Virus record (IMG/VR): IMGVR_UViG_3300034064_001787
Location: 1-63,568 of that record
DNA from: a virus
Reading direction: 5' to 3' (one strand)
DNA: 63,568 nt
Below are positions 7,999 to 23,050 of this stretch, one piece after another (the stretch's first letter is position 1; each line of letters starts with the position of its first letter). Made by a program: the position numbers and the translations under genes. The notes below the pieces were generated by a model. It was not told the origin of the DNA, did no database searches, and saw only the letters and a program-made list of their open reading frames with translations.

Positions 7999-8063
7999 TT
8001 TCATCCATCATCCTTCCTCCTTCCTCCTTCATCATTCATCATTCATCCTTCATCCTTCCTCTT
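7999..8063 (+). repeat. Dispersed spacer repeat, TTCATCCT family
   Basis: Tandem variants of TTCATCCT/TCCTTCC fill the space between the divergent minus and plus gene groups. The same family precedes ATG at 10452, 11353, 12252, 12879, 13667, 16145, 17761, 19538 and 23051, and as a TTCCTCA variant near 24277. Confidence 0.8.
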
Positions 8064-8132
8064 TCCGCCCTTCCCACCTTGACGCCCAGCGTGAAAGCCC
8101 GCACGCTCCACCCCCCTCGCCACGCCGACACC

Positions 8133-8489: not shown

Positions 8490-8817
8490 CCCCGCACCAG
8501 TCAACACGGTCAATCCGGTTGCCCCTCCCCGCGGCACGCTGCGGCTGCACACGCACGCGGACGTTTAATTATGAATAGTTAAGCATAACGAGAAAGATCA
8601 ACTTTCGTTTGCAAATCCTATCCAAACGGATAAGATAGTGATGTTCTCCGATGTGAATCAGCTGAACGTGAAGCAGGGCATCCCCTGCAATGGATTTTTT
8701 CAAAAGATGCCCCGCGCGTCTTACGGAAGTCCGTGCCCATAGGCTTCCCTATATAGGGAAGCCGCCCAAACGGAAAAGCGAGCCGTTTAACTCGCTACTT
8801 CTAGCCCCCTACCTCTT
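8490..8817 (+). promoter_or_regulatory. AT-rich control region with promoter and palindromes
   Basis: A 328-bp gap without a gene. It begins with a GTCAACACGGTCAATCC spacer repeat (8499-8525), then turns AT-rich. A promoter-like pair TTGCAA (8609-8614) and TAAGAT (8631-8636) has 16-nt spacing and overlaps the hairpin TATCC-AAAC-GGATA. Further on are GCAGGG/CCCTGC (about 8675-8691) and a perfect 22-bp palindrome centred on TATATA at 8742-8763, and AGCGAG/CTCGCT (8776-8795) just before the next gene. It could be an operator array or a replication origin; I cannot tell which. Confidence 0.5.
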
Positions 8818-9609: not shown

Positions 9610-9626
9610 CCTGCCAAGCCTCACGC

Positions 9627-9658
9627 GAGGCGCGGAGAAATCCGCGCCTCGTTTTTTT
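9627..9658 (+). terminator. Strong intrinsic terminator
   Basis: A 10-bp GC stem (9627-9636 with 9641-9650) closed by a GAAA tetraloop, followed by G and seven T. It ends the single-gene unit of the KPEDG protein. Confidence 0.9.
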
Positions 9659-9715
9659 GACCTGGTTCCCGAAAGTGGCGCGTCCGCGCTCACCGGGAGA
9701 ATCATGCCCACCCCT

Positions 9716-9731
9716 GTCCCTATGTAGGGAC
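9716..9731 (+). promoter_or_regulatory. Palindrome GTCCCTATGTAGGGAC
   Basis: Seven-base arms with a two-base centre, lying 31 bp before ATG 9762. The inner TCCCTATRTAGGGA core is shared with the 22-bp palindrome at 8742-8763 that lies upstream of the preceding gene, suggesting a common binding protein. Confidence 0.5.
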
Positions 9732-9761
9732 GCTGTTTGAAACGTCCACTGCTCTTTTGCC

Positions 9762-10325
9762 ATGAAATCGTCCGACTCATTTTTCCAAGAGGGGCTGCCG
9801 CCCCACCTCTCCCGCCCGCGCTGCCACGGTGAATTTTTCGAGGAACCCCTCACCTACGAGAGCGGCTTCCACAACGCGGACATCGTGCTCTCCGGCGACG
9901 GCGTGCATGCCGCCACCTCCGGCGGGCAGGTCATCCTCGTTCGCCATCCGAACGCGCTGTCTCCCGGCATCTACGGCAAGTTCAAGGGCCGCCTCATCAA
10001 GGCCCGCAGCAAGGCGTCCATCCGCGATCGCCGTTGGCTCGATCCCGCCGAGCACGCCCGCATCACCGCGCATCAGGAGCGCAAGCACCGCCTCGCCCAT
10101 CCGCTCACCTACCGCAAGCCGCCACCCAAGCCCTCCAAGGCCGAGCGCGAGCACCTGCACACGGAGCGTGAACGCGCCGACTACGCTGCCGAGCAGAAAC
10201 GCCTGGCCACCGCCGTGCCGCCGGCCCCGCCGGAAATCGTCTGCCCCATGGAAGCTGATCGCCTAACCCTGCTGGCCCGCATCGCCGCGCACAACGCCCG
10301 CTTTGGCAATAAACGCCGCGCCTGA
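9762..10325 (+). CDS. Hypothetical protein, 187 aa
   Basis: The N-terminal half has SGGQVILVRHPNALSPGIYG, a small beta-rich unit. The C-terminal half (from about residue 100) is a long, strongly charged helix (EREHLHTERERADYAAEQKR). A DNA- or RNA-contacting protein is possible from charge alone. It is bounded by the palindrome upstream and a terminator downstream, so it looks like a single-gene unit. Confidence 0.7.
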   Translation: MKSSDSFFQEGLPPHLSRPRCHGEFFEEPLTYESGFHNADIVLSGDGVHAATSGGQVILVRHPNALSPGIYGKFKGRLIKARSKASIRDRRWLDPAEHARITAHQERKHRLAHPLTYRKPPPKPSKAEREHLHTERERADYAAEQKRLATAVPPAPPEIVCPMEADRLTLLARIAAHNARFGNKRRA

Positions 10326-10348
10326 TCTCCCCACCCCAAAACCAAACC

Positions 10349-10383
10349 AGCCCGTGTCCGCCTCCGTGCGGCACGGGCTTTCT
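10349..10383 (+). terminator. Intrinsic terminator
   Basis: AGCCCGTG (10349-10356) pairs with CACGGGCT (10372-10379), with an inner CCGC/GCGG, followed by a T-rich stretch. It closes the preceding gene. Confidence 0.75.
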
Positions 10384-10393
10384 TCTGCCCACC

Positions 10394-10449
10394 TTTCATC
10401 CTTCATCCTTCCTCCTTCATCCTTCATCCTTCCTCCTTCATCCTTTTCC
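10394..10449 (+). repeat. Dispersed spacer repeat, TTCATCCT family
   Basis: About six TTCATCCT/TCCTTCC words ending in a CTTTTCCCC run directly before ATG 10452. There is no purine-rich ribosome binding site, as for the other plus-strand genes with this leader. Confidence 0.8.
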
Positions 10450-10451
10450 CC

Positions 10452-10655
10452 ATGACTCTCTCCTTCACCCCCACCGTCCGCACCGCCGCGCCCGATCTCC
10501 TCGAATCCACCGGCGATGAATCCACCGTCCGCGCCCACTGCGCCAACATCCTGCGCGCCGCCCGCGCCCGTGGGGAGCGGCCCCGTGCCGTGCTCACCGG
10601 CGTCCTGAAGCGCGTCTATCAGCTCTCCAACGGCCTGCTCAAACTCTGCCTGTGA
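10452..10655 (+). CDS. Hypothetical protein, 67 aa
   Basis: Small helical protein with HCANILRAARARGERPRAVL. It is followed directly by the RadC-like gene, 5 bp after its stop, so the two are likely co-translated. No family recognised. Confidence 0.6.
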   Translation: MTLSFTPTVRTAAPDLLESTGDESTVRAHCANILRAARARGERPRAVLTGVLKRVYQLSNGLLKLCL

Positions 10656-10660
10656 CCGCC

Positions 10661-11140
10661 ATGAAACGCCGCGCCCGCTATTCCTTCGGCCAGTTCCGCA
10701 TCGAGACGCTCCGGGAGACGCCCCACGAGGGCCACCTCGAAAGCCCCGCGCAGATCCACACCTACTGGCACCAGCACGTCGCCCCCAGCCCACAGATGCA
10801 GCTCCCAGACAAGGAGCACCTTGTCGTCGTGCTGCTCAACACCCACCTCCGCCCGCTCGGCTGGCACCTGGTGTCCATGGGCAGCCTGAACTCGTGCGAT
10901 TCCCATCCCCGCGAGATCCTGCGCCCCGTCCTCATCGGCGCGGCGCACGGCTTCCTCCTCATGCACAACCACCCCAGTGGCGATCCCACGCCGTCCGATC
11001 CCGACCGCCGCCTCACCCGCCGCATGAAGGACTGCGCCGCGAGCCTCGGCCTCCACTTCATCGACCACGTCATCATCGGCCACGAACTCCCCCACCAATC
11101 CCGGCCCTTCTTCTCCTTCCGCGAACACGGCCTGCTTTAA
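10661..11140 (+). CDS. RadC-like JAB/MPN+ domain protein, 159 aa
   Basis: The C-terminal domain carries the JAMM-type metal motif of the RadC family: LLMHNHPSGDPTPSDPD (about residues 101-117), followed by CAASLGLHFIDHVIIG. The upstream acidic residue of the motif is plausible in DKEHLVVVLLNT. RadC-like proteins are common on phages and mobile elements; their activity is unsettled, and a role in phage DNA recombination or host defence is proposed. The start is ATG 10661; GTG 10652, overlapping the previous stop, is an alternative. Confidence 0.88.
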   Translation: MKRRARYSFGQFRIETLRETPHEGHLESPAQIHTYWHQHVAPSPQMQLPDKEHLVVVLLNTHLRPLGWHLVSMGSLNSCDSHPREILRPVLIGAAHGFLLMHNHPSGDPTPSDPDRRLTRRMKDCAASLGLHFIDHVIIGHELPHQSRPFFSFREHGLL

Positions 11141-11152
11141 TCCCTTTCAACC

Positions 11153-11311
11153 ATGCCTCGAAACACCCGTCCCTGCCGCCGCGCTGCCGAGCGCGAATTC
11201 CTCCACACCCTCATCGCCACCGGCAAAACCCTCGCCCAGCGAGCGCCAGAGCCAGAAAAACGCCAAGCCGCCACCCGCGTCACCCGCCGCCTCAAACTGC
11301 TGCTGCTGTGA
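11153..11311 (+). CDS. Small basic protein, 52 aa
   Basis: An Arg-rich helical protein (CRRAAEREFLHTLIATGK, then TRVTRRLKLLLL). It starts 12 bp after the RadC-like gene and is followed by a TTCATCCT spacer. Coding nature is inferred from spacing and intact frame; function unknown. Confidence 0.5.
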   Translation: MPRNTRPCRRAAEREFLHTLIATGKTLAQRAPEPEKRQAATRVTRRLKLLLL

Positions 11312-11352
11312 GGTCTTCATCCTTCCTCCTTCCTCCTTCATCCTTTCCCCGC

Positions 11353-12213
11353 ATGTCTCTCCCCAACACCGCCCTCCTCGCCCGGCTGCGCATCTGCATG
11401 CCGGGAAATCGCCACAAGGACGCCACCCTGACCCATGACGTGCATGCCCGGCACGGCATGTCCGCAGATTCCGGCCTCTACCAGAAGCTGCTGCTGCCAG
11501 AGACGGCCTACCACCAGCACAAGCGCGTGGCCCACGCCGCCCGCAAGGAGCACCAGCGCCGCACCTTCAGCACGGACTACGGGGCCATCCTGCCCGCCGC
11601 GAAGGTGGACGACTTCATCGAAACCCTGACCGCCCGCCGCACCGAGTGGGACGCAGCAAACACCGACTTCTTCCGCCACTACCCCAAATACCTGGACACG
11701 GCCCGCCGCAAGCTCAACGGAGCCTTCAAGCCGGAGGACTACCCCGCGCCGTCCGAACTGCCACGGCTGTTTGTCTTCGAGTTCCAACTGCTGCCCATGC
11801 CCAGTGTGGACGCGCTGGATCACATCATCGGCCTGGCCGATGGCCGCGTGGCGGAGATGCGGCAGCAGCTCACCCGCACGGCGCAGGCCGCCGGGGAGGC
11901 CACACGCCACCAGCTCCTCCAGCGCATCCTCGACCGCCTGCAACGCCTCGGCTTGTCTTTGGCAAACCCGGACTCACCCCTGCGCCATGACACCGTGGAC
12001 CGCTTCCGCGAGCTCCTCGATGACGCAGCGGCGATGAACCTCACGAACGATCCCGGCATCACCCGCCTCGTCGCCGACTGCCGCGCGCACCTCACCCTCG
12101 CCACCGAGTCCCTGCGCCACGATCCCGTCGTCCGCAACCGCACCCTGGCCGCCACCAGCCTCCTCCTCCAGTCCCACGGCCGCCGCATCGAAACACCGAA
12201 GGCCAGTGCCTGA
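11353..12213 (+). CDS. DUF3150-like protein, 286 aa
   Basis: A long helical protein. The order of motifs (TDYGAILPAAKVDDFIETL, then a charged stretch with EWDAANTDFFRHYPKYLD, then LPRLFVFEFQLLPMP) resembles DUF3150 proteins found in phages and plasmids beside AAA+ ATPases. Function unknown. The start is ATG 11353 after a TTCATCCT spacer. The link to the Ycf46-like AAA+ gene 4 kb downstream is only suggestive. Confidence 0.6.
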   Translation: MSLPNTALLARLRICMPGNRHKDATLTHDVHARHGMSADSGLYQKLLLPETAYHQHKRVAHAARKEHQRRTFSTDYGAILPAAKVDDFIETLTARRTEWDAANTDFFRHYPKYLDTARRKLNGAFKPEDYPAPSELPRLFVFEFQLLPMPSVDALDHIIGLADGRVAEMRQQLTRTAQAAGEATRHQLLQRILDRLQRLGLSLANPDSPLRHDTVDRFRELLDDAAAMNLTNDPGITRLVADCRAHLTLATESLRHDPVVRNRTLAATSLLLQSHGRRIETPKASA

Positions 12214-12251
12214 GTTCATCCTTCATCCTTCACCCTTCATCCTTTCCTCCC

Positions 12252-12446
12252 ATGCCCCGCGAACTCCTCCTCCCTATCCCGCACGCCATCGCCGACAAAG
12301 TGCATCACCTACTCACCGACGAGGCCGAATTCCACCTCGACCCCTCGCGCTGCGATAATCCCAATCCAACCCTTGGCCGCGATTTCGAGCAACTCGCCGA
12401 AAAGCTCGAAACCCTTGCCCGCGAAGCCGGAGTGATCGGCTGGTAA
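12252..12446 (+). CDS. Hypothetical protein, 64 aa
   Basis: Contains LPIPHAIADKVHHLLTDEAEF and a C-terminal helix (FEQLAEKLETLAREAGVIGW). Preceded by a TTCATCCT spacer. No family recognised. Confidence 0.55.
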   Translation: MPRELLLPIPHAIADKVHHLLTDEAEFHLDPSRCDNPNPTLGRDFEQLAEKLETLAREAGVIGW

Positions 12447-12475
12447 CTTCCCCCAAACCCACACCCACACCACCC

Positions 12476-12652
12476 ATGAAAGCCACCATCAAAAACAACA
12501 TCCTCACCATCGAAATCCCGCTCCAGCCACCCACGGCCTCCAAGAGCGGCAAAAGCCTCGTCGTCGCCACCTCCGGCGGCAACATCGCCACCACCGCAGA
12601 GGTGAACGGCAAACCCGTGACCATCGGCCTCAACGCCTACATCAAAGCCTAG
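12476..12652 (+). CDS. Hypothetical protein, 58 aa
   Basis: The beta-strand pattern (KATIKNNILTIEIPLQ, then KSLVVATSGGN and GKPVTIGLNAYIK) suggests a small beta-barrel or sheet. It follows the 64-aa gene by 29 bp. Function unknown. Confidence 0.6.
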   Translation: MKATIKNNILTIEIPLQPPTASKSGKSLVVATSGGNIATTAEVNGKPVTIGLNAYIKA

Positions 12653-12655
12653 TTC

Positions 12656-12878
12656 CCCGTCTCCCAGTCTCCCCGTCTGCATTGACAGACGCCGTCCCTC
12701 GAAGCCCGTCCGCTGGCTGCACGCTCTGCTTCTCCTTCTGTGAGTCGCCACCTGAGCTGCCCCGGACGGGCTTCGCTTTGACACCTCACGAAGCCCGTGC
12801 CGCCCCATGCGCCACGGGCTTCGTCTTTCTCCCCGTTTCATCCTTCCTCCTTCATCCTTCATCCTTGCCACCCCACCC
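12656..12878 (+). other. Non-coding gap with hairpins and spacer repeats
   Basis: No gene is seen in these 223 bp. A GTCTCC spacer (12656-12680) is followed by two inverted repeats built on GAAGCCCG/CGGGCTTC (about 12698-12709 with 12763-12774, and 12789-12800 with 12813-12823, the latter followed by TCTTT, terminator-like). A TTCATCCT spacer follows before the next ATG. Confidence 0.6.
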
Positions 12879-13136
12879 ATGGCCTCCCCCTTCGACATGC
12901 GCCCGGACGCGCGGCAAACGCAAGCCCGGCAGATGCTGCGCGATGCCGCCGCGCACCTCACCCAACTCTCCCACCGCACCGACCTCGACGACGACGAGTT
13001 CGAGATGGCGCTGGCCAATGAACTCCTCCTCGTGACCAACGCCCGCCAGTGGTGGAAGAAGGCCCGCGAGGAAAAACAGCAGGTGCTCCAACACCACCGC
13101 GCCCACCTGAAGCGCGCCGCCCTGCTGGATGTGTGA
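12879..13136 (+). CDS. Hypothetical protein, 85 aa
   Basis: An all-helical charged protein: RQMLRDAAAHLTQLSHRTDL, then DDDEFEMALANELLL and a Lys/Arg/Gln-rich C-terminal helix, probably coiled coil. ATG 12879 follows a spacer repeat. No family recognised. Confidence 0.6.
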   Translation: MASPFDMRPDARQTQARQMLRDAAAHLTQLSHRTDLDDDEFEMALANELLLVTNARQWWKKAREEKQQVLQHHRAHLKRAALLDV

Positions 13137-13162
13137 CCCTCAACCCTCCGCCTCTTCCCGCC

Positions 13163-13450
13163 ATGAACCGACACACCACCGAACGCCTCTACCCAGGCCA
13201 GCAACCCAGCGCCCTCCAGCACATCGACCTCACCCGGCATCTGCCCAGCCTCAAAAGCAGCCTGTCGCCCCAGCCGATCAAACGCTTCGATGAAGCGCCT
13301 GAATTTACCCGGCTGCGCCCACCGCCCACCGCGAAGCCCGACCTCACCCCTCGCCTCCTGCTCGGCGCATTTCTCCTCCTCACCGTCCTCCCCGTGGCCG
13401 CCCTGCTTTACAAGCAGTGGCGGCCCGTGACGACGTCCCAACGCCCATGA
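13163..13450 (+). CDS. C-terminally anchored membrane protein, 95 aa
   Basis: A polar N-terminal part of about 62 residues precedes one membrane span (LLLGAFLLLTVLPVAALLY) near the C-terminus, then a short basic tail. Its stop overlaps the ATG of the next tiny membrane gene (ATGA). It is the first of three consecutive small membrane genes. Confidence 0.6.
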   Translation: MNRHTTERLYPGQQPSALQHIDLTRHLPSLKSSLSPQPIKRFDEAPEFTRLRPPPTAKPDLTPRLLLGAFLLLTVLPVAALLYKQWRPVTTSQRP

Positions 13451-13545
13451 ACTTTTCCGACCTCTCCCCCGCCGCCGAAATCAGTCTGCTGCTGGGGATC
13501 ACCCTCCTCCTCCTCACCGGCCTCCGGCTGCTCCTCAAACGCTGA
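13447..13545 (+). CDS. Tiny single-span membrane protein, 32 aa
   Basis: Nearly the whole product is one membrane span (ISLLLGITLLLLTGLRLLL) with a Lys-Arg end. The start overlaps the previous stop by ATGA, so translation is coupled. Function unknown. Confidence 0.5.
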   Translation: MNFSDLSPAAEISLLLGITLLLLTGLRLLLKR

Positions 13546-13547
13546 CC

Positions 13548-13646
13548 ATGGACCTCGCCCCACCACCTCCCTTCTCCGGCCTGCGCGTCCTCGCGCTGCT
13601 GGCCTTGCTCTTCTGGACCGTCCTCCTCTTCGTCATTTCCCACTAA
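13548..13646 (+). CDS. Tiny single-span membrane protein, 32 aa
   Basis: A short Pro-rich head and one span (LRVLALLALLFWTVLLFVI). It starts 2 bp after the previous stop. Its size equals that of its neighbour, so the two may act as a pair. Function unknown. Confidence 0.5.
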   Translation: MDLAPPPPFSGLRVLALLALLFWTVLLFVISH

Positions 13647-13666
13647 TTCATCCTTCATCCCTCCCC

Positions 13667-14200
13667 ATGACTCTCACCTTCCGCCCCAACGGCACCTACG
13701 CCTGCCCCGGCCTCGGCTCCACCCGTGACCTCGCCGTCTTCTCCACCCTCGGCCTGCCACCCGTGCTCGAACAGCGCGGCTGCAGCGACTGCCCCGTCTT
13801 CACCTCTTGCAAGATGTCCCACTGGACGCAGATGGCTGTGGAAATCTCCGACATCCCCGCCCTCCAGCAGGCCGCGCAGGAACTCGGCTGCTTCTTCATC
13901 GAAAGCGGCCAGGCCCGTGGCTACGCCGGGCGGAACCGGCACGCCGCCTACGTCCTCCAAACCCCCGAACCCTGCCGCTACGACATCGCCGTCGATCCCG
14001 CCGCTGATGGCAAGCTGGCCCTCACCACCGACTGGTGGGGTGGGGACGTGGCCCGCGTCGTCGGCGACAACTACGGCAAGCTCCTCCAGCACTACGGCAT
14101 CGCCAAAGCCGAACTGGCCGCCCACGCCGAAGGCTACCTCACCACCCGCGAAACCTGCGCCAACGGCGACCTCAAGCTCCACATCGACATCCTGGCTTAA
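13667..14200 (+). CDS. DUF1257 (Ycf35-like) protein, 177 aa
   Basis: Residues 50-177 follow the DUF1257/Ycf35 pattern: MSHWTQMAVEISDIPALQQA, then YDIAVDP, TTDWWGGDVARVVGDNYGK and a C-terminal NGDLKLHIDIL. The family is named from plastid and cyanobacterial genes and has no proven function. The first 49 residues are an extra part with a Cys cluster (GCSDCPVFTSC). Translation could instead begin at ATG 13814, where family members usually start. It is followed 21 bp later by a DUF2997 gene, its usual partner. Confidence 0.8.
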   Translation: MTLTFRPNGTYACPGLGSTRDLAVFSTLGLPPVLEQRGCSDCPVFTSCKMSHWTQMAVEISDIPALQQAAQELGCFFIESGQARGYAGRNRHAAYVLQTPEPCRYDIAVDPAADGKLALTTDWWGGDVARVVGDNYGKLLQHYGIAKAELAAHAEGYLTTRETCANGDLKLHIDILA

Positions 14201-14221
14201 CCAAGCACCCCTCTTTTCCCC

Positions 14222-14416
14222 ATGAAAAAACTCATCGTCACCGCCACGCCAACCGGTAAAACCACCATCGAAGCCGAAGGCTTCCAAGGCCAAGGCTGCA
14301 CCCAGGCCAGCGACTTCCTCGTCCGCGCCCTCGGCACCATCGAGTCCCGCACCGACAAACCCGAGATGCACGAAATCGCCCCCGCGCTGGATCAAGGCCT
14401 CCACCTCAACGCATGA
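14222..14416 (+). CDS. DUF2997 protein, 64 aa
   Basis: Short beta-rich N-terminus (MKKLIVTATPTGKTTIEAEG) and the family's GxxC pattern (FQGQGCTQASDFLVRALG). DUF2997 genes typically stand beside DUF1257 genes, as here. The stop overlaps the next ATG (ATGA). Function unknown; the conserved pairing suggests a complex. Confidence 0.75.
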   Translation: MKKLIVTATPTGKTTIEAEGFQGQGCTQASDFLVRALGTIESRTDKPEMHEIAPALDQGLHLNA

Positions 14417-14823
14417 GCCTGTCCGCCGAACTGCGCGCTGAGCGCCTCATGACCTGCGCGGAGCGTGATCGCCTGCTCACGCAGGGATTCTCCGCTGCCG
14501 TGATCGACGCGCTGGCCGAGCGCGGCTACCGCCCCTGCCAACCGCCGGGAAACCCACCCAAGCAGGAAAACCGCTGCGGGTTCCTGCGCCAGACCACCCT
14601 GCCGCACCTCCACCTCTCCCTGTGCCCTGGCGATGGCCTGGAAGAGCTGGACACCGCCCTCTACGAGGCCGGACGTCGCGACGGGCACGACACCCTCGCT
14701 AGTTACTTCATGCGCTTCTTCGAGTGCGTGAAGGCCCGCCCCGCCGCGCCCGACCTCAGCACCCTGGAGCAGCGCCTCGCTGCCCTCGAAGCCCGCCTCT
14801 CAACCGAAACCCCTCCCTCATGA
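14413..14823 (+). CDS. Hypothetical protein, 136 aa
   Basis: Coupled to both neighbours by ATGA overlaps. Two halves: a helical N-terminus (ELRAERLMTCAERDRLLTQG) and a C-terminal helix (LSTLEQRLAALEARLST) likely to be coiled coil. No family recognised; being in the DUF1257/DUF2997 operon it may work with them. Confidence 0.65.
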   Translation: MSLSAELRAERLMTCAERDRLLTQGFSAAVIDALAERGYRPCQPPGNPPKQENRCGFLRQTTLPHLHLSLCPGDGLEELDTALYEAGRRDGHDTLASYFMRFFECVKARPAAPDLSTLEQRLAALEARLSTETPPS

Positions 14824-15131
14824 AAAGCTCCGACTACCTCTTCCTCCCACCGTCCCATGAGACCTGGATCATGCACGTCCCCGTGATCAACACCTGCCAC
14901 ATTCAGCAAGAAGACGATGCCCGTCTGTCACAAGACGACATCGGCAACGGCCCCGTCATGGCCGACCTCAAACCCGGCTACCTGCTCTCGATCGACGATC
15001 TGGCCGACTTTGAAGGCTACTCCGACGCCTTCCTCCACCTCCTCGAAACCTTCCACAACCTCGGCTTCCACTACCTGCGCCTCGACCCCGATGGCAACGT
15101 CCTCGACGACCTGCCGCAGTTCGACTGGTGA
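14820..15131 (+). CDS. Hypothetical acidic protein, 103 aa
   Basis: The ATG overlaps the preceding stop. It contains PPSHETWIMHVPVINTCHI and an acidic C-terminal half (LLSIDDLADFEGYSDAFLHL). It ends the run of four coupled genes and is followed by a terminator. No family recognised. Confidence 0.65.
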   Translation: MKSSDYLFLPPSHETWIMHVPVINTCHIQQEDDARLSQDDIGNGPVMADLKPGYLLSIDDLADFEGYSDAFLHLLETFHNLGFHYLRLDPDGNVLDDLPQFDW

Positions 15132-15162
15132 TCCTCCTCGTCCTCCCACTCCTACTCAACCC

Positions 15163-15186
15163 GCCCGCTTCACGCGGGCTTTTTTA
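15163..15186 (+). terminator. Intrinsic terminator
   Basis: GCCCGC (15163-15168) pairs with GCGGGC (15174-15179), loop TTCAC, followed by six T. It lies 31 bp after the acidic protein gene. Confidence 0.75.
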
Positions 15187-15212
15187 TACCCACCCTCCAC
15201 CCTCACACTCCT

Positions 15213-15641
15213 ATGGGCGACCGCTGCCACATGACCATCTACTGCCGTCCGCAAGACACGGCCCGCTTCGAAGAACTCGGCTTCACCGCGCAAATCCCTG
15301 AAACCGCCTTCAACGACGGCACCGTCGAAATGCTCGACGAAGAAGCCAACTACGCGCACCACGGGTCACTTCCCACCGACATCCCGTGGACCGGTTCCCA
15401 CCATGAAGGCGGCAACTACGGCCCCGCCGAGCTGCACTGCCCCGGCGAAGGCCGCATCTGGGAATGGGAAACCAACACCAACCACAGCGCCTACTGCTTC
15501 TCCCATCCCATCACCGATTCCCACGACTTCATCACCGAGATCCTCCAGTTCAACGCCTTCTACGAAGCCTACCTTCGAACCACCCACCTGCTATGCCCTC
15601 CCGCCCCCGATCCCGCGAGCAGCGCTACGAACGCTGCCTGA
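15213..15641 (+). CDS. Hypothetical phage protein, 142 aa
   Basis: Begins MGDRCHMTIYCRPQDTARF and contains EEANYAHHGSLP and TGSHHEGGNYGPAELHC. This opening and these His/Cys-rich motifs occur in small uncharacterised phage and plasmid proteins. The 3' end overlaps the next gene by 49 bp. Confidence 0.65.
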   Translation: MGDRCHMTIYCRPQDTARFEELGFTAQIPETAFNDGTVEMLDEEANYAHHGSLPTDIPWTGSHHEGGNYGPAELHCPGEGRIWEWETNTNHSAYCFSHPITDSHDFITEILQFNAFYEAYLRTTHLLCPPAPDPASSATNAA

Positions 15642-15817
15642 AGACCGTCCACGCCGCCCTGTGCCAGCAAGCAGAAGATTTGGAAAGCATCGGTGCCACA
15701 CCATACAGCAACGACACCCTCGCCCTCATGAACCGCCTCTGCGCCCGCATCACCCGCACCCTCACCCCACGCCCCATCACCTCCAAGCAAATCCACCGCC
15801 TCCTCTCAAAACCATGA
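15593..15817 (+). CDS. Basic hypothetical protein, 74 aa
   Basis: Arg-rich, helical (SREQRYERCLKTVHAALCQQ). It overlaps the previous gene by 49 bp in another frame and the next by ATGA. The overlap lowers confidence somewhat, but the coupling to the next start supports it. Confidence 0.5.
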   Translation: MPSRPRSREQRYERCLKTVHAALCQQAEDLESIGATPYSNDTLALMNRLCARITRTLTPRPITSKQIHRLLSKP

Positions 15818-16107
15818 CTCTTTCCGATTTCCTTAATCTCCGAGGAGAGAACCACCAGTTCACAGAGGATGCTGAGCAAGCCTCCTTTCGAGCCCGTGGG
15901 TATCAAATCGGTTGGTATAGCACTCAAACCCTTGATGCCCTTCCATCCAAAGCCAAACCCGTCCGATTCAAAGAGATACCCCCGTGCCTCCGCTCCGGCT
16001 TCACCCCCAAAGACATCGTGAAAGCCTGGCGTTACCGCCGCGCCTGCGGCGAGCTCTCCCGCTACTACTTTCAAGACCGCGACGGCGATCTCCAGTCCGC
16101 CCAGTAA
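15814..16107 (+). CDS. Hypothetical protein, 97 aa
   Basis: Contains ARGYQIGWYSTQTLDALPSK and GFTPKDIVKAWRYRRACGEL. Codon use is less biased than its neighbours, suggesting later acquisition. It is coupled to the preceding gene. No family recognised. Confidence 0.6.
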   Translation: MTLSDFLNLRGENHQFTEDAEQASFRARGYQIGWYSTQTLDALPSKAKPVRFKEIPPCLRSGFTPKDIVKAWRYRRACGELSRYYFQDRDGDLQSAQ

Positions 16108-16144
16108 TTCCCCATTCATCCTTCATCCTTCATCCTTCATCATT

Positions 16145-17689
16145 ATGAACCTCAGCCTCCACATCCGCGCCGGTTACGCCGGCCTACTCATCACCACGCA
16201 CGAAGAATCCCGCGCGCTGGACACCTGCCGCAGCGTCGCCACCGAGCTGGACCGCCCGCTCCTCGCGTGGTCCTGCGCCACCGGCCTGTCCGATCTCAAC
16301 GCCACGCCCCAGTTCTCCAATCCCGGCCTCAAGACACCCATCCAGCTCTTCGAGGCGCTGGGAAACCTCCCCGCGCCCTGCCTGCTCGTCCTGTATGACC
16401 TGCCCATCTTCTTCTCGGCACCGAATCCGTCCCTCACCCGCACCTTCCGCCTCGCGCTGAACACCGCGAAGGCCAAGGGCATCACCCTGCTCGTCCTCAG
16501 CCCCGGCACACCCGCCCTGCCGCCAGACATCGCCAAACTCCTCACCCCACTGCCGCTCCCGCTGCCCACGCGGGAGGAACTGGCCGCCGTGATCGACCGC
16601 CTGTGCCACCACCCCAGCGAGTCCGGCGAGATGCACCGCCTGCGCGAGATCCCCACCGGGGATGAGTTGCAAGCCCTCACCGACGCCGCCAGCGGCCTCA
16701 CCGAAAACGAGGCGGAGGACGCCTACGCCCTCTCCCTCGTCCAACACGGACGCTTTGACCCGCCCACCGTCGAGGCGCAAAAAGCCGCCACCCTGGCCGC
16801 CAACGGCCTGCTGCACTACCTCAAACCCAAAGGCACCCTGGCCGACATCGGCGGCTGGGACGCTTACAAAGCGCACCTGCGCACCACCCGTGGCCAGTTC
16901 TCCCAGGCCGCCAAGGACTACGGCCTCGTGCCCACCAAAGGAGACCTCTTCGTCGGCAGCCCCGGCTGCGGCAAATCCCTCGCCGCCAGCATCCTCGGCG
17001 CGGAATTCAAGATCGCCACGCTGCGCTGCCGCCTGGACAGCCTGCGCGGCTCTCTCCTCGGCCAGACGGAGGCGAACTGGCGCAGCGTCGTGGAGACCGC
17101 CCGCACGCTGGCCCCGTGCATCCTCCACCTGGAGGAGCCGGACGGCCTGCTCTCTGGCCACGCCAGCAGCGGCAAGACGGACGGCGGCACCACCGCCACC
17201 CTCGTCAAAGCCATGCTGCAGGACATCGAAGCCAGCGACGGCATCTACTGGATCCTCACCACCAACGACATCGACTGCCTGCCGGATCCCCTCATCGACC
17301 GCCTCAACGTCTGGAACGTCGATCTCCCGAACGAAACTGAGCGCGGCGAAATCTGGCAGATCCAGATGCGCCACACCAAGCGCGATCCCCACACCGTGTG
17401 CCCCAAAGGCCTCGTCGGCATCGTCAAAGCCACGGACGGCTTCTCCGGCCGCCAGATCGAGCGCGTGTGGCACAAAGCCCTCTCCCTGGCCTTTGCCGAT
17501 GCCGCCCGCGAACCGCAGGAGAAGGACATCCTCTCCGCCCTCATCGGCGAGGTGCCCACCAGCAAGACCATGGCCGCCACCATCGAAGCCCGCCGCACCC
17601 GCCTCGAAGGCAAAGCCAAACCCGTCACCAGCCCCACCCTCGGCAAACTCATGACCGCCAAAGGCCGCAACGTCCAAGCCGCAGGGTGA
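16145..17689 (+). CDS. Ycf46-like AAA+ ATPase, 514 aa
   Basis: The N-terminal region (MNLSLHIRAGYAGLLITTHE, AWSCATGLSDL) follows the Ycf46 pattern. The AAA+ core has Walker A GSPGCGKSLAAS (about residues 272-283), a Walker B-like ILHLEEPDGLLSG in which the usual Asp-Glu pair is Glu-Glu, sensor 1 TTNDIDCLP, and LIDRLNVWNVDLP at the arginine-finger position. The C-terminal lid is helical. Ycf46 proteins are uncharacterised ATPases of plastids and cyanobacteria; Ycf35 and DUF2997 proteins are encoded 2-3 kb upstream. A remodelling or motor role in a complex with them is inference. Confidence 0.85.
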   Translation: MNLSLHIRAGYAGLLITTHEESRALDTCRSVATELDRPLLAWSCATGLSDLNATPQFSNPGLKTPIQLFEALGNLPAPCLLVLYDLPIFFSAPNPSLTRTFRLALNTAKAKGITLLVLSPGTPALPPDIAKLLTPLPLPLPTREELAAVIDRLCHHPSESGEMHRLREIPTGDELQALTDAASGLTENEAEDAYALSLVQHGRFDPPTVEAQKAATLAANGLLHYLKPKGTLADIGGWDAYKAHLRTTRGQFSQAAKDYGLVPTKGDLFVGSPGCGKSLAASILGAEFKIATLRCRLDSLRGSLLGQTEANWRSVVETARTLAPCILHLEEPDGLLSGHASSGKTDGGTTATLVKAMLQDIEASDGIYWILTTNDIDCLPDPLIDRLNVWNVDLPNETERGEIWQIQMRHTKRDPHTVCPKGLVGIVKATDGFSGRQIERVWHKALSLAFADAAREPQEKDILSALIGEVPTSKTMAATIEARRTRLEGKAKPVTSPTLGKLMTAKGRNVQAAG

Positions 17690-17760
17690 TCCTACCTCGC
17701 TGCGAGGGCAGGGGCTTTCCCTCTGCTTTCATCCTTCATCTTTTATCCTTCATCCTTTTC

Positions 17761-18057
17761 ATGAACGACCTCAACGACATCTCCCTCCTCATCCTGGCCG
17801 ATCTCGGCTGCCAACCGCGCCGCCTCAAAGCCCGCATTGATTCGCTCTGCCAGAGCCAACAGGGCGTCGGCCACACGCTGCCGCCCAAGCCCCTCCGCGC
17901 GCTGGAGCAGCGCGGCTGGCTCATCCTGCGCGGCGGCCACGAGAGAAAAGCCAACTACTCCATCGAAGTGACCGATGAAGGCCTGGCCGTCCACCGCTCC
18001 CTCATGCAACACCTCCGCGCCTTCCCCGTCGCCGCCCCAGCCGCCGTAGCCGCGTGA
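17761..18057 (+). CDS. Winged-helix regulator-like protein, 98 aa
   Basis: Helices around LIDSLC-type and LRALEQRGWLILRGG, then a wing and YSIEVTDEGLAVHRSL, which is the usual pattern of MarR/PadR-like winged helices. It follows the AAA+ gene across a TTCATCCT spacer. The target is unknown. Confidence 0.6.
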   Translation: MNDLNDISLLILADLGCQPRRLKARIDSLCQSQQGVGHTLPPKPLRALEQRGWLILRGGHERKANYSIEVTDEGLAVHRSLMQHLRAFPVAAPAAVAA

Positions 18058-18081
18058 TCGGACTTCCCTTGACTTCCCGTG

Positions 18082-18978
18082 ATGAACACGCATCCTGATT
18101 TTGGCCACGTGCCAATGACCGCTGCGGCCTCGAAGGCTCTCGCCGCAGGAGGGGCAGCCCGTAAGGGCTGCCCCTCACCTTTTCACCGCGCCCTCCAAAA
18201 CCCGGACCTCTCCTACCACCACTGGTGGATACTCACCGCGCTGCGCGTCCGCACCGCCGCCACCGCCCTCAAACTGCAGGAGCAGGAAAAGCAAAAACTC
18301 CGCGCCGGATTCAAAACCAACGGCTACGGCGACCTCACCACCCTCACCTACGGCCACACCACGCAAGACCGCAGCGTCCAACGCTACGGCTTCACCGTCA
18401 CGAAACTGCACGGCTTCCGCAAATGGAAGAAGCGCTATTCGCCGGAGAAATCCACCCACTACGTCACCAGCCACCTCTTCGACGCCCTCCACGCCGTCCT
18501 CAAGATCACCACGCAGATCGAGAAGCAGGACACCCAGGAAAAAGCCGCCGCGAAGGCCGGGTTTGTCTCGGTGCAGGCGCACTGGCGCTGGCATCAGCGG
18601 CAGGAGCAGGAGAAAGACCGCGCCCGCGCCGATGGCTTCAACAGTGGCGTGCAAGACGAGCGCCGCCGCGCCGCCGAAGCCGACAAGCCCACCGGCTCTT
18701 ACAATGACCTCAACGACTACGGCATCGCCCCTGATCGCGATTGCATCATCGGCCCCACACTCGTGCTGGTGAACTACCAACGCACCCGCGAGCACCGCGT
18801 GAGCCTCATCGAATACCTCAATCTCAGACTCGGAAACATCCGGAAAAACGACTGGCGTGACGCCGGTTGGCGGCTTCCCGCCTACACCCCACCCAAACAA
18901 CCCCGTCCGATCAAACTACGCCTGCAAAGCCACGAACGCCACATTGACGGCATGCCGCCACTCCAACAAACTTCCTGA
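18082..18978 (+). CDS. Hypothetical protein, 298 aa
   Basis: A basic, helical protein with HGFRKWKKRYSPEKSTHYV and ERRRAAEADKPTGSYNDLND. An 11-bp hairpin with GTAA loop (18150-18175) lies inside codons 24-31, but no later start codon is available, so it is probably coding DNA that also folds. GTG 18079 is an alternative start. No family recognised. Confidence 0.65.
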   Translation: MNTHPDFGHVPMTAAASKALAAGGAARKGCPSPFHRALQNPDLSYHHWWILTALRVRTAATALKLQEQEKQKLRAGFKTNGYGDLTTLTYGHTTQDRSVQRYGFTVTKLHGFRKWKKRYSPEKSTHYVTSHLFDALHAVLKITTQIEKQDTQEKAAAKAGFVSVQAHWRWHQRQEQEKDRARADGFNSGVQDERRRAAEADKPTGSYNDLNDYGIAPDRDCIIGPTLVLVNYQRTREHRVSLIEYLNLRLGNIRKNDWRDAGWRLPAYTPPKQPRPIKLRLQSHERHIDGMPPLQQTS

Positions 18979-18981
18979 CCC

Positions 18982-19314
18982 ATGCCACCTCTCGATCTCC
19001 AGCCTTACATTGACCACACCCTGCGCCAAGCCCGCCTTTTGAAACAACGGCACGGCCAGCCGGATGTTCTCACCCTCAGCCTCTACGCCACGGATGACGA
19101 CCTGCACCAACTCCGCCCGGAGGACGGGCCTGATGCCACCGTGAAAGTCCAGCACCGCATCACCCACGCCTGCGCCGACGCACTGCGCCGAGAGGGCTTC
19201 CCCGTGCGGCTCATCACCGTGCGCGCAACCGATTACCTCAAATGGCTCACTGAAAACGAACTCCCCAACCTCCCCGAAAACCGCGCCAAGTGGCTCACCT
19301 GGCAACAGCAGTAA
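18982..19314 (+). CDS. Hypothetical protein, 110 aa
   Basis: Starts 3 bp after the previous stop. Mixed alpha/beta with LTLSLYATDDDLHQLRPEDG and FPVRLITVRATDYLKWL. No family recognised; likely co-translated with its neighbour. Confidence 0.65.
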   Translation: MPPLDLQPYIDHTLRQARLLKQRHGQPDVLTLSLYATDDDLHQLRPEDGPDATVKVQHRITHACADALRREGFPVRLITVRATDYLKWLTENELPNLPENRAKWLTWQQQ

Positions 19315-19315
19315 C

Positions 19316-19537
19316 CTCTCCCAGTCTCCCCCTCTCCCCATCTCCTCCTCTTCTTTTCCTGCGGCCTGAGAGCCCGCAGGCATGGCAAGCAAGGCCCCCC
19401 CCACGAGCCCCTGTCCTCCACGCGAGGGCAGGGGCTTTTCTCTGCCTTCATCCTTCATCCTTCATCCTTCATCCTTCATCCTTCATCCTTCATCCTTCAT
19501 CCTTCATCCTTCATCCTTCATCCTTCATCCTTTCCTT
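19316..19537 (+). repeat. Spacer block: GTCTCC words, then about 11 TTCATCCT units
   Basis: No gene in these 222 bp. A GTCTCCCC-type stretch (19318-19350) is followed by the longest TTCATCC array of the genome (19447-19535), nearly perfect 8-bp-like repeats, ending at ATG 19538. Any short reading frame through it is low-complexity. Confidence 0.85.
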
Positions 19538-19816
19538 ATGCAAGACCTCCTCCCCCTCAAACGCCACGCCGAAGCGCACGGCCTCACCCTCAACCTGTTC
19601 TCCGTCCTTCTGGCCGTGCAAAAGCAATCCCGCACGCACACCGAGATCGCCAAACTGCTCGGCAACTCCACCGCCGCCGTCACCGGCCTGATCGACCGCC
19701 TCGCCGCCGCCGAGTGCGTCTCCTCCCTCCCCAGCGACGGCGACCGCCGCTGCAAATACGTCACCCTCACCGAGCGCGGCCAGACCATCCTGGCCACCGC
19801 GCCGAAGGCCGCGTGA
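19538..19816 (+). CDS. MarR-like transcriptional regulator, 92 aa
   Basis: A winged helix: THTEIAKLLGNSTAAVTGL is the helix-turn-helix, followed by IDRLAAAECVSSLPSDGDRR (the wing) and CKYVTLTERGQTIL, all in the MarR order. It is shorter than free-living MarR proteins, lacking most dimerisation helices. A phage regulator of early genes is likely. Confidence 0.75.
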   Translation: MQDLLPLKRHAEAHGLTLNLFSVLLAVQKQSRTHTEIAKLLGNSTAAVTGLIDRLAAAECVSSLPSDGDRRCKYVTLTERGQTILATAPKAA

Positions 19817-19823
19817 TCCCCAC

Positions 19824-19895
19824 TTGAAACTTGAAACCTGAAACCCTTTCCGGCCCCCGCCGAAACCAAGAACAACGAACCAAGAACAACGAACC
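19824..19895 (+). repeat. Spacer repeats: ACTTGAAAC and CCAAGAACAACGAA families
   Basis: Copies of CTTGAAACCTGAAACC (19824-19850) are followed by two tandem units of AACCAAGAACAACGA (about 19866-19895) just before ATG 19904. Confidence 0.75.
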
Positions 19896-19903
19896 CACCG
19901 CCC

Positions 19904-21106
19904 ATGAAAAAAAACCGCCCCACCCCCGCCGCCGAAACCGACGCCTCCTCCCCCTCCATCCTCACGCTGGACACCCTGCGTGAGATGGCGGAGGCGCAGC
20001 GCGTCGATCTCTACGTCACCACCGAAAACCGCCAGCGCCTCGGCTTCCTACTGCAAGGCAAGATCCTCCACACCCTCGGCATCGAGGGCACGGAGCTCCT
20101 TCGCGCCGCCGGCATCAAGCCCTCCTCCCTCTGCAATGCCCGCAAGGCCGAGTGGGTGCTCCGCGCCTTCACCGAGCCGGACACCGACACCCTGCGCAAC
20201 GCCCGCTTCCACGTCCCCGGCGAGGAAGAGCCCGTCGCGTTCAGTGAGGCACTCTACAACACCCTGACGCTGCGCCAGTGCGAGCTGCTGCAGATCGGCT
20301 TCACCACCATGGGCACCTTCCGCCACCGCCCCACCAGCCGCGAGATGAGTGAGATGCTCACCAAACCGGACTGGGACGAGCATGTGGAGTGCTTCCTCGA
20401 CTACGGCACCGACCTCGACGGCAAAGCCGAGCGCGAGGCCGCCTCCGCCCGCGCCCTGGAGGAGGAACGCCTCCGCCGCGAGGACATGGCACGCCAGATC
20501 GAAGAACTCCAGGCCCGCAACGCCGTCCTGGAAAGCTCCGAGCCGCCACCCCCACCCGTGGTCAACACCGCGCCGACTCCCGGCGAAGCCGAAACCGACG
20601 CCGCCCCCAACAACGTCGTCGCCTTCCCCACCAGTCAATCCAGTCAATCCAGTCAATCCAGTCAATCCAGTCCCACCGCTGAAGACACCGAAACCACCCC
20701 CGAAGCTGAAGTCGCCAACGAACCCGAAGCCACCCCAGAACCCGAACCCGAGACCGAAGACGCCGAAACCGTCGAAATCCCGCCGGCAGACCCCGATGCC
20801 GTCACCCACGAGGAGATCGCCTCCGCCGTGGCCGATGCCACCGAGGGCATGGAGAACTACACCGAAGACGGCCCCACCGTCCTCGCCTCCTGCCTCGACG
20901 AGATGGAAGCCGTCCTCAACGACGGCGCGGTGCATCAGTGCAGCGTGGAGACCCTCACCAGCCTCCTTGTCCGCCTTGACGACATCACCGCCGCTCTGCG
21001 CACCGCCCTCACCGCCAAAGCCGCCCCGCAGGACGACCTGCCCGTCCAGCAGCCCAAGGCCAAAGGCGGCAAACGCAGCAAAAAAACCGACCTCGCCGCC
21101 GCGTAA
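19904..21106 (+). CDS. Hypothetical protein with acidic repeat linker, 400 aa
   Basis: The N-terminal part (1-150) contains LRAAGIKPSSLCNARKAEWV and TLTLRQCELLQIGFTTMGT. A charged coiled-coil stretch (170-205) follows. Residues 245-310 are disordered: first SQSSQSSQSSQSSP, encoded by the dispersed AGTCAATCC repeat (20633-20672), then Glu/Pro/Thr-rich. A C-terminal helical domain (about 305-375) and a Lys-rich end finish it. Function unknown. Confidence 0.75.
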   Translation: MKKNRPTPAAETDASSPSILTLDTLREMAEAQRVDLYVTTENRQRLGFLLQGKILHTLGIEGTELLRAAGIKPSSLCNARKAEWVLRAFTEPDTDTLRNARFHVPGEEEPVAFSEALYNTLTLRQCELLQIGFTTMGTFRHRPTSREMSEMLTKPDWDEHVECFLDYGTDLDGKAEREAASARALEEERLRREDMARQIEELQARNAVLESSEPPPPPVVNTAPTPGEAETDAAPNNVVAFPTSQSSQSSQSSQSSPTAEDTETTPEAEVANEPEATPEPEPETEDAETVEIPPADPDAVTHEEIASAVADATEGMENYTEDGPTVLASCLDEMEAVLNDGAVHQCSVETLTSLLVRLDDITAALRTALTAKAAPQDDLPVQQPKAKGGKRSKKTDLAAA

Positions 21107-21184
21107 CCCGCGCAGATGACAGCCCACGTCCAGTGCCGGCCTGAGAAACCGGCACTCTGATACGAGGCACTTCAATGGTTGAGG

Positions 21185-21222
21185 CACCCGGCTCCCGTCA
21201 CACGGAGCCGGGTGTTTTTTTT
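21185..21222 (+). terminator. Strong intrinsic terminator
   Basis: A perfect 11-bp stem (CACCCGGCTCC, 21185-21195, with 21204-21214) is followed by eight T. It lies in the 155-bp gap after the 400-aa gene; nothing else is seen in that gap. Confidence 0.92.
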
Positions 21223-21261
21223 GCGCTGGCCTCTATTCCAAACCAGCTACTTTCACCCACC

Positions 21262-21687
21262 ATGAACCTCCCCGCCTGCCACATCCCCACCCATCTCCGC
21301 AAAGCCCTGGCACTCGACTACATTCTTTACCCCTACGAGCTGCATGGCTCCCTCGTGTTTGATGATCCCGCGTTTGATCTTGTGGCCGAGGAGCTGGTCT
21401 GTGGGGCCGATACCTTTGTGCGCTATTGCTCACAGCACATCACGCATCCCGCCGTGCATGTCTCCAACACCCACCGCCCTGCCTCCAACTGCCTTCACTT
21501 CCTGCGCATGGAGAACAACGGTTATCACACTTACACCACCGACATCCCGGAGGTGCCACAAATGCAACTGTGCCCGAACTTCCGCTTGTATTATCCCGAT
21601 CCGCCCGCGCACCTGTGGATCAACGTCGCGGAAGTCTCACCATCGGAACAGCACCTTTATACATGGCCTCAGCCTGTTTTGTCGTGA
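21262..21687 (+). CDS. DUF6717-like hypothetical protein, 141 aa
   Basis: Contains LHGSLVFDDPAFDLVAEELV and GADTFVRYC, the general pattern of DUF6717 proteins of phages. The last 22 codons overlap the 3' end of the opposite-strand gene at 21620, so the C-terminus may have been replaced when that gene was inserted. The start is ATG 21262. Confidence 0.55.
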   Translation: MNLPACHIPTHLRKALALDYILYPYELHGSLVFDDPAFDLVAEELVCGADTFVRYCSQHITHPAVHVSNTHRPASNCLHFLRMENNGYHTYTTDIPEVPQMQLCPNFRLYYPDPPAHLWINVAEVSPSEQHLYTWPQPVLS

Positions 21688-22975
21688 TGCCATTCCTTCG
21701 TTGCACCCGCTCAATTTCTTTTGCTTTACGATCCACAAACCCCATGCCTGCGTAATGCCTGGCCAGTTTTTCCGAAGGAACAGACGCATGCCCATACGCA
21801 TTCGCCGTGGTCTTAATGAGGCGGTTGCGTTTGTCCGCGTTCTGCAACAACGGCGTCGCCACCGCTTTCAACGCCCTACCCGAACGAATCATGGAACCTC
21901 CTTGCGGAGCAGACATGACATCCACTTCCCGCAAGCGCCGCCCGCTCCGAATATAATCAAGATGCACATCCGTCGCGGGATTGAACTTCCGTTTGGCTGC
22001 ATCCGCCGCCGTTTGCGGCATCTCCGCCTCATTCACTGGACGAAACAGCCTCACCGGCCTGTCTTTGCCAGACCCATGCTTATTCCAACCACGCGACCCA
22101 CCTCGGAGAGGCGGGCGCTCCACCAAATATCCTGACTTCAACAACGCAAACTCCAACAATCGATCCACCCGATGCAATACCGTCAAAAATTCCCCTGGCG
22201 CGAAGTGCTGCTTGCTTGCGGCATCATCCTTCTGCCTCTCACCTGCGCCAAACTTGCTCGCCGCGGCGCGGAGCGGCTTGAGTCCGTGATATACCGCGTT
22301 TTGGGTCTGTGACAGCATGGGTGATCCCAGCAAATCCGTCACTGCCCGTGATACTCCACTTGCTTTTTTACCCTTCAACCCCGCCATGCCCGCTTTACGA
22401 ACCAAAGCATCTCCCCACGGATGCTTCGCAAGCAAGGCCCGCCCTCCGTTGATCAATGGCATCACGGGCTCCACCAAAGCGGCACCTACTCCAGTCGCCG
22501 CCGCTGCCGACCGGCCTAGCCATTTGCTTTTCGGTGTTGCCGCCTCCTTGGAGGACACCCTCGGCAGTTTTTTCATTAAAGCATCCATGTGCTTGCTGCG
22601 CGGCCCCGCGATGATGCGGGAAACCTGACCCGCCTCGTCATTCCCTGGCATCTTTGCACGCGCTGAGGCGATCAAACGCTGCACCCGCGTGCTTTCACCT
22701 CCTGCCTTGTAAAGGTGGCTGTATTCCGGCCCCAACAGCACATCCGCGCTGCGCTGCAGCATCGGATGCAGCACCTTGCCCTGCTTGGCGTCACGATGTC
22801 CCGCTTGTGCGATGGATGCCAGCACACGCTGCCCGCGTTTGGATTTCAGCAACCCTTTCGTTAGCAGATTCTGGCCGACATGAATCGCCGCACCCATGCC
22901 CAATGTCCCCAGCAAACTGAATTGCCTCAATGAAGCGTCCATCTGGCGGTTCAAACGTGTCAATTCAAGCAACAT
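21620..22975 (-). CDS. Inverted solitary gene for a tagged virion-type protein, 451 aa
   Basis: The only minus-strand gene within 21 kb of plus-strand genes. It has the late leader GTTGAT at 22990-22995, 14 nt before ATG. The N-terminus MLLELTRLNRQMDASLRQFS nearly matches that of the gene at 29469 and carries the L-x-x-F tag shared with the giant protein. The rest is Lys/Arg/Ala/Gly-rich with a glycine-rich stretch (GVGAALVEPVMPLINGGRAL). C-terminal HYAGMGFVDRKAKEIERV. Probably an internal virion protein expressed late; composition is lower in GC than its neighbours. Confidence 0.75.
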   Translation of the reverse strand: MLLELTRLNRQMDASLRQFSLLGTLGMGAAIHVGQNLLTKGLLKSKRGQRVLASIAQAGHRDAKQGKVLHPMLQRSADVLLGPEYSHLYKAGGESTRVQRLIASARAKMPGNDEAGQVSRIIAGPRSKHMDALMKKLPRVSSKEAATPKSKWLGRSAAAATGVGAALVEPVMPLINGGRALLAKHPWGDALVRKAGMAGLKGKKASGVSRAVTDLLGSPMLSQTQNAVYHGLKPLRAAASKFGAGERQKDDAASKQHFAPGEFLTVLHRVDRLLEFALLKSGYLVERPPLRGGSRGWNKHGSGKDRPVRLFRPVNEAEMPQTAADAAKRKFNPATDVHLDYIRSGRRLREVDVMSAPQGGSMIRSGRALKAVATPLLQNADKRNRLIKTTANAYGHASVPSEKLARHYAGMGFVDRKAKEIERVQRRNGITTKQAEAMYKGAVPMVRLPRR

Positions 22976-23050
22976 CCCTCTCTCCTCATATCAACCACCC
23001 CAAACCCGCCTGATCCCCACTTCATCCTTCCTCCTTCCTCCTTCATCCTT

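Follow-up and report, generated by a model that had tools for sequence, protein, structure and literature searches.

A three-gene cassette on a tailed phage

The stretch analysed here is the IMG/VR virus record IMGVR_UViG_3300034064_001787, taken at its full length of 63,568 bases (the window). It encodes a portal, a large terminase, a scaffold, a major head protein, a primase and a sliding-clamp-like gene, and hence represents a genuine tailed phage. In the non-structural part of the phage, on the + strand, three protein families lie inside 4 kb: DUF1257 (Ycf35), DUF2997 and a Ycf46-type AAA+ ATPase. Ycf35 and Ycf46 have been labelled 'conserved, function unknown' since the first plastid genomes, and DUF1257 and DUF2997 are rarely mentioned in the full-text literature we searched. 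A first-pass annotation of this DNA had already recognised the trio, with small genes in between, calling it plastid-like and taking it for one functional complex. The features of the cassette, including open reading frames (ORFs), are as follows (lengths in amino acids, aa; AF2, AlphaFold2).

13667..14200, +, DUF1257/Ycf35 protein, 177 aa ORF; conserved domain from MSHW (ATG 13814)
13667..13813, +, Cys-rich N-terminal extension of the DUF1257 protein, 49 aa (C13, CSDC-x5-C), from codon usage
14222..14416, +, DUF2997 protein, 64 aa, with the invariant Cys26 (14297-14299) in G-x-x-C, from PF11211
14413..14823, +, small ORF without family, 136 aa, overlapping the DUF2997 stop, from ORF and profile scan
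14820..15131, +, DUF5983 protein, 103 aa, PF19419 at 46.6 bits
15213..15641, +, ORF without family, 142 aa, from ORF and profile scan
15593..15817, +, ORF without family, 74 aa, from translation
15814..16107, +, ORF without family, 97 aa, from ORF and profile scan
16145..17689, +, Ycf46-type AAA+ protein, 514 aa, from phrog_8638, AF2 and Foldseek
16145..16819, +, N-terminal AAA-like half (D1) of the AAA+ protein, without P-loop, from 153 homologues and AF2/Foldseek
16955..16978, +, Walker A of D2, GSPGCGKS, with P-loop Cys275 (16967-16969), from homologue alignment
17120..17143, +, Walker B, ILHLEEPD, with D330E and the catalytic E331 kept, from homologue alignment
17291..17314, +, Arg-finger region, LIDRLNVW, with 'RKG' of the usual RKGRFD deleted, from homologue alignment

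Profile searches bore out the family assignments, two of them directly. The DUF2997 protein scored 42.1 bits against PF11211 (cut-off 24.1) and has the Cys of the G-x-x-C motif; among 103 homologues, the G and the C are conserved in all 103, and a C-terminal T-x-E-Y/F-Y tail is well conserved. A search of solved structures with DUF2997 gave no significant match. The AAA+ protein scored 67.7 bits against PF00004 and matched the phage family phrog_8638 (E 1.9e-73) over residues 3-498, a full-length membership that includes the P-loop-less N-terminal half. It is also 30% identical over 493 aligned positions, N-terminal half included, to the cyanobacterial AAA+ protein encoded beside Ycf35. The Ycf46 name that we use for this type of protein comes from established knowledge plus a peptide of slr0374 that matches the cyanobacterial P-loop. 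The genes between DUF2997 and AAA+ proved to be real ORFs, one of them DUF5983.

The DUF1257 assignment goes through relatives. Alone, the window protein reached 21.6 bits against PF06868, 0.6 bit short of the Pfam cut-off of 22.2. It is 38-49% identical to Verrucomicrobiota DUF1257 proteins, the closest of which (L109, 49%) scores 33.3 bits, and all seven members of our alignment A10 match PF06868 (two others, A1 and A4, had diverged too far to be used in scans): since close relatives pass the profile, we regard the membership as secured through them. The core motifs of the family (MSHW start, RYDIAV, DWWGG) are all present, and AF2 predicts the core with a pLDDT of about 90. Neither by sequence nor by fold did DUF1257 match any solved structure significantly, and in a viral-library search significant matches were limited to two unnamed viral proteins. 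Viral scans with DUF1257 queries yielded next to nothing, while the AAA+ query did find viral loci, probably because DUF1257 diverges fast. In gut bacteria, DUF1257-like C-terminal domains occur in proteins of 420-440 aa adjoining AAA+ (L057, L082, L091, L093).

Co-inheritance of the three families

The association of the three families is firmly established. Among 63 viral contigs picked by AAA+ alone, 58 have both partners; the genes share a strand and are mostly adjacent, their order being DUF1257-DUF2997-AAA (52 contigs) or AAA-DUF1257-DUF2997 (6 contigs). A Pfam check of a sample of them at E 0.01 recovered DUF2997 in 17/18 and DUF1257 in 13/18. We also collected 80 cellular loci solely by AAA+ similarity, spanning Hodarchaeota, methanogens, Omnitrophota, Planctomycetota, Bacillota, Bacteroidota, Actinomycetota and Cyanobacteriota. 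Within the flanks that were fetched, DUF1257 was found in 52 of the 80, every time on the AAA+ strand, DUF2997 in 39, and at least one of the two in 59. At the level of whole genomes, DUF2997 occurs in 33 of 38 genomes picked only by their AAA+ gene, versus 1 of 14 controls. A helix-hairpin-helix protein (PF12836; e.g. L046:3456-4190) also recurs near AAA+ in about 25 cellular loci.

A further count comes from 195 Verrucomicrobiota genomes drawn evenly. DUF1257 is encoded in 7 and DUF2997 in 9 of them, and a full-length AAA+ gene (over 400 bits) in the identical 9, one of which, G014, had been the centre of the search; all ten Verrucomicrobiota DUF1257 loci adjoin a DUF2997 gene. The coincidence of AAA+ and DUF2997 gives a hypergeometric P of 2e-14 with the centre genome excluded and genomes treated as independent, a value that is too small given the relatedness of the genomes, although its direction is plain. 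Taken together, the counts from genomes, Verrucomicrobiota and viral contigs go far beyond chance and rule out a chance co-location of the trio.

Two further observations point the same way. One viral protein (L125) is a fusion, with DUF1257 at residues 9-122 (63 bits) and DUF2997 at residues 138-189 (55.7 bits; Pfam 44.1), and a similar fusion with a weaker DUF2997 half occurs in L119; fusion of this kind usually means that the parts act together. The full set is also found in cultured phages (among those inspected, one of Pseudomonas (Samunavirus), two of Rhizobium and one of Aeromonas), on a phage-like Rhizobium plasmid and on plasmids of Planktothrix and Paenibacillus. DnaB and DNA polymerase are encoded 3-5 kb downstream of the cassette in the Rhizobium phages and on the phage-like plasmid, and the Aeromonas and Pseudomonas phages have homologues of these neighbours at the same place. 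Co-occurrence in phages, plasmids, bacteria and archaea, together with the fusion, thus links the three genes functionally. This is the part of the 'one functional complex' claim that holds; a physical complex would be a further step, which we word as a proposal below.

The module probably has a fourth component. A small family ('gene y') with about 75 conserved residues lies near the trio in 45 of the 63 viral, six Verrucomicrobiota and one Lentisphaerota loci, often directly downstream of DUF2997 (for instance L004:6862-7230). The members tested have no Pfam match, and the window holds no recognisable copy.

A candidate p97-like machine and its possible control

The AF2 model of the window AAA+ protein (pLDDT 90.7) aligned in Foldseek over both halves to p97/Cdc48, Rix7 and NVL, p97 being the best match (E 4.5e-23 over 565 columns). 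A Walker A motif was found in the N-terminal half of none of the 153 homologues: this first half lacks a P-loop throughout, and the protein does not have the two tandem ATP-binding AAA domains that define type II p97/Cdc48. Alignment and model rather suggest a protein that works like a type II enzyme without being one. In the second half Walker A is intact, and the catalytic Glu331 and the sensor Asn374 are kept. In two viral loci a probable intein sits exactly within Walker A of the AAA+ gene (L174:1982-4090 and L167:7608-8786; it ends ...VSHN/TGKS); DUF1257 and DUF2997 were not found at these two loci.

The first-pass annotation had noted an altered Walker B (LEEPD). The D330E substitution is real and rare (2/153 homologues, the window and L110), but conservative, because the catalytic Glu is kept; E331 is conserved in 152/153. 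The 'RKG' deletion in the Arg-finger loop is common to seven phage sequences including the window, six of which keep the Walker B Asp, and the loop left behind, DRL(D/N)VW, is conserved. Its presence in six other phage sequences suggests a lineage variant, not decay. The pore-loop position is non-aromatic (LLG), as in many homologues. From the rarity of D330E and the shortened loop one could argue that the ATPase of this phage is a degenerate, non-hydrolysing scaffold. We consider this rather unlikely: Walker A, the catalytic Glu and the sensor Asn are all in place, and a shared deletion that leaves a conserved loop, in sequences most of which keep the Asp, looks like a functional variant.

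The reading that we favour, by a modest lean, is that one conserved, mobile cassette has the three genes as its core, with a p97-like remodeller and a DUF1257-DUF2997 adaptor or regulator pair. The Ycf46-type protein would be an ATP-driven protein-remodelling enzyme of the p97/Cdc48 type, probably ring-forming, in which an N-terminal AAA-like half predicted to be unable to bind ATP (having no P-loop) precedes a complete ATPase domain. Acting jointly, DUF1257 and DUF2997 would serve the ATPase as its adaptor or regulator, or present substrates to it. In many cells the module would be coupled to a 4Fe-4S partner (a radical-SAM Fer4_12 protein or the ferredoxin Fed7), while phages would carry the core alone. 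In the phage, a host or phage protein would probably be remodelled during the early or replicative phase.

The same functional link could hold with the roles reversed, DUF1257 and DUF2997 being dedicated clients of the ATPase, e.g. small redox or cofactor carriers that are loaded, unloaded or turned over. DUF2997 is small, its Cys is invariant and its tail conserved, which is what a client or carrier might look like, and both the variable gene order and the iron-sulfur (Fe-S) partners in cells are compatible with it; the fusion and the constant adjacency of the two genes, for their part, suit a structural pair equally well. We regard clients as a possible arrangement, though the less probable one.

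Within the remodeller reading, thiol or redox control would be the likeliest mode of regulation, because DUF2997 has an invariant Cys and the ATPase carries one in its P-loop. The P-loop Cys is present in 122 of the 153 homologues, as Cys275 in the window. Peptide 260-271 of Synechocystis slr0374 (Ycf46), which contains Cys269, was found in a significantly more reduced state in the light than in darkness (PMC13214033). Cyanobacterial homologues have a tryptic P-loop peptide, GMLILGVPGCGK, that likewise counts 12 residues with Cys as the tenth, and from this length and position Cys269 almost certainly corresponds to the Cys of the P-loop. In p97, modification of the equivalent D2 P-loop Cys (Cys522) under oxidative stress lowers ATPase activity (PMC5389986). 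Deficiency of iron, sulfur or nitrogen, high light and oxidative stress all elicit a response of the slr0373-0374-0376 operon (PMC7496141). Fe-S partners are found on the cellular side too: a radical-SAM Fer4_12 gene lies in 30 of the 80 cellular loci, always on the AAA+ strand, and cyanobacteria have a DUF2997-ycf35-fed7 cluster with ferredoxin Fed7 (PMC4284462). Synechocystis ycf35, fed7 and ssl1263 are jointly SigD-dependent (PMC8875361), and in red-algal plastids the losses of ycf35 and ycf46 follow a similar habitat-linked pattern (PMC5940233). Redox gating would be the most specific testable idea for the module.

The DUF1257 protein of the window has Cys residues of its own. The cluster GCSDCPVFTSC, described in the first-pass annotation as an addition, does lie within the 49 residues that precede the usual MSH start (ATG 13814), where all inspected relatives begin, several with a ribosome-binding site just 5'. 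The frame of the window is open for these 49 residues, back to ATG 13667, and the codon-usage score of the stretch is 0.52 per codon (mean of right frames 0.50, 99th percentile of wrong frames -0.20). Codon usage thus shows that the extension is coding, in the same frame as DUF1257, and rules out a non-coding stretch before a DUF1257 start at 13814; internal initiation at ATG 13814 is possible. The stretch is either an extension of the coding region or a small gene that became fused, unique to this phage, with a counterpart in none of the relatives inspected. Residues 31-48 have a pLDDT below 50 and the Cys region is predicted to be disordered; the cluster may bind metal. The first residues of the extension score 5.5 bits against 'gene y', which holds this place in L001, compared with top values of 5.6 and 4.9 in about 900 scored shuffles: this is suggestive of a 'gene y' remnant, and we do not claim it.

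Joined into one scheme, these clues would describe a thiol-gated machine in which DUF1257 presents the DUF2997 Cys so that it reacts with the P-loop Cys or shields it, and which runs in one redox state only. Phages of many hosts would use it on a replication or takeover target, and in this phage the Cys cluster on DUF1257 would replace the Fe-S partner. As a whole we judge so detailed a scheme improbable.

A different role on phages would be defence or counter-defence, comparable to that of the anti-phage ATPase of ietAS. In its ATPase domain the protein is similar to IetA (PADLOC 84.9 bits; NCBIfam 82.9 bits), the cassette travels on phages and plasmids, and AAA+ alone is found on a phage satellite. 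Yet the match is confined to the AAA domain and its 82.9 bits compare with an NCBIfam IetA cut-off of 510; classical AAA proteins would be expected to show such similarity, and Cdc48/p97 match as well. Besides, the same gene set is chromosomal in cyanobacteria, and DUF1257, DUF2997 and the small intervening genes have no match in the defence library. For lack of a supporting partner, such as the IetS protease, in that scan we rejected a defence system, and a defence role of this kind has little probability.

Several points weigh against the remodeller reading. The complex of three proteins is proposed from genes alone. AAA+ genes without DUF1257 and DUF2997 were found in Mycobacterium Corndogvirus (L006) and a Streptococcus satellite (L007), in the stretch examined, and a second Verrucomicrobiota AAA+ group (315-370 bits) also goes without partners. 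A P-loop Cys is common across the Cdc48 family and is hence not evidence specific to this module. The activity of the window ATPase could be reduced, given D330E, the shortened Arg-finger loop and the non-aromatic pore loop. Finally, no radical-SAM partner was found beside the module in the window or in any viral locus examined, and no ferredoxin was found among the ORFs scanned around the window cassette.

Origin, surroundings and known relatives

In a FastTree phylogeny of 140 AAA+ sequences, whose long branches are unsure, the window groups with five phage contigs beside copies from Verrucomicrobiota, Lentisphaerota and Planctomycetota, apart from cyanobacteria. On this tree we rejected a plastid or cyanophage origin. 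'Plastid-like' was misleading, the families spanning archaea to many bacteria, and is an artefact of naming. By its sequence relatives, a host from the Planctomycetota-Verrucomicrobiota-Chlamydiota (PVC) group is plausible. On the tree, the label 'viral' has to change five times or more, so the cassette probably moved between phages and cells repeatedly. The tree also bears on the idea of a host-derived auxiliary set for photosynthesis or CO2 uptake, for which one can cite the lowered activity of carbonic anhydrase EcaB upon loss of Ycf46 in Synechocystis (Jiang 2015, as cited in PMC7496141). With the window copy among Verrucomicrobiota and phage copies, and most carriers non-photosynthetic, we disfavour this idea and give it hardly any weight.

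Around the cassette, the heptamer TTCATCC occurs in 49 copies on the + strand of region 8000-23050 and in 4 on the other, often in tandem (a run at 19447-19530 has 12 copies in 19447-19524) and frequently right before gene starts (10452, 12252, 13667, 16145, 17758, 23051); L001 has comparable repeat runs 5' of genes. Close to the trio, 10652-11140 encodes a RadC-like JAB protein (PF04002, 110 bits), and four Verrucomicrobiota loci (L108, L109, L111, L112) likewise have a RadC homologue near the trio. A 58-aa protein without family, at 12476-12652, has homologues in L001 (52%) and near the trio in Verrucomicrobiota L108 (58%).

Families named after plastids are thus in fact spread over bacteria and archaea, and travel jointly in many unrelated phages and cells. 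As one mobile module that is frequent on phages and has cultured, tractable carriers, they turn a slow cyanobacterial problem into one of phage genetics and biochemistry, and a p97-like machine known mainly by a plastid name would join the repertoire of phage-encoded remodelling enzymes.

How does the cassette compare with known systems? The AAA domain is shared with IetA, but the window protein falls below the family cut-off and has another N-terminal half and other partners. Likeness to p97/Cdc48/VCP extends to a D2-type ATPase (phmmer E about 1e-30), the two-domain fold and the D2 P-loop Cys, whereas the D1-like half lacks its P-loop, there is no p97 N domain and identity is 17-19%. Cyanobacterial and plastid Ycf46 (slr0374) and Ycf35 belong to the same domain families, the cyanobacterial AAA+ gene adjoining DUF1257 on the chromosome, and the window DUF1257 protein is 30% identical to cyanobacterial Ycf35 over 76 residues. 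The window differs in order and spacing, lacks a ferredoxin partner, branches with PVC and phage copies, and has the N-terminal extension and the changes in Walker B and Arg-finger. The published DUF2997-ycf35-fed7 cluster (PMC4284462) contains two of the three families as neighbours, but this cluster (g) lists neither the AAA+ gene nor phages; conversely, the phage set comes without ferredoxin, and no 4Fe-4S neighbour was found beside the cassette of the window. In Samunavirus UF_RH6 (Pseudomonas), Rhizobium phages RHph_I4 and L338C and Aeromonas HJ05, the order is AAA-x-DUF1257-DUF2997-y, the Arg-finger region is canonical and the DUF1257 N-terminus is shorter, yet as in the window all three families stand in one cluster.

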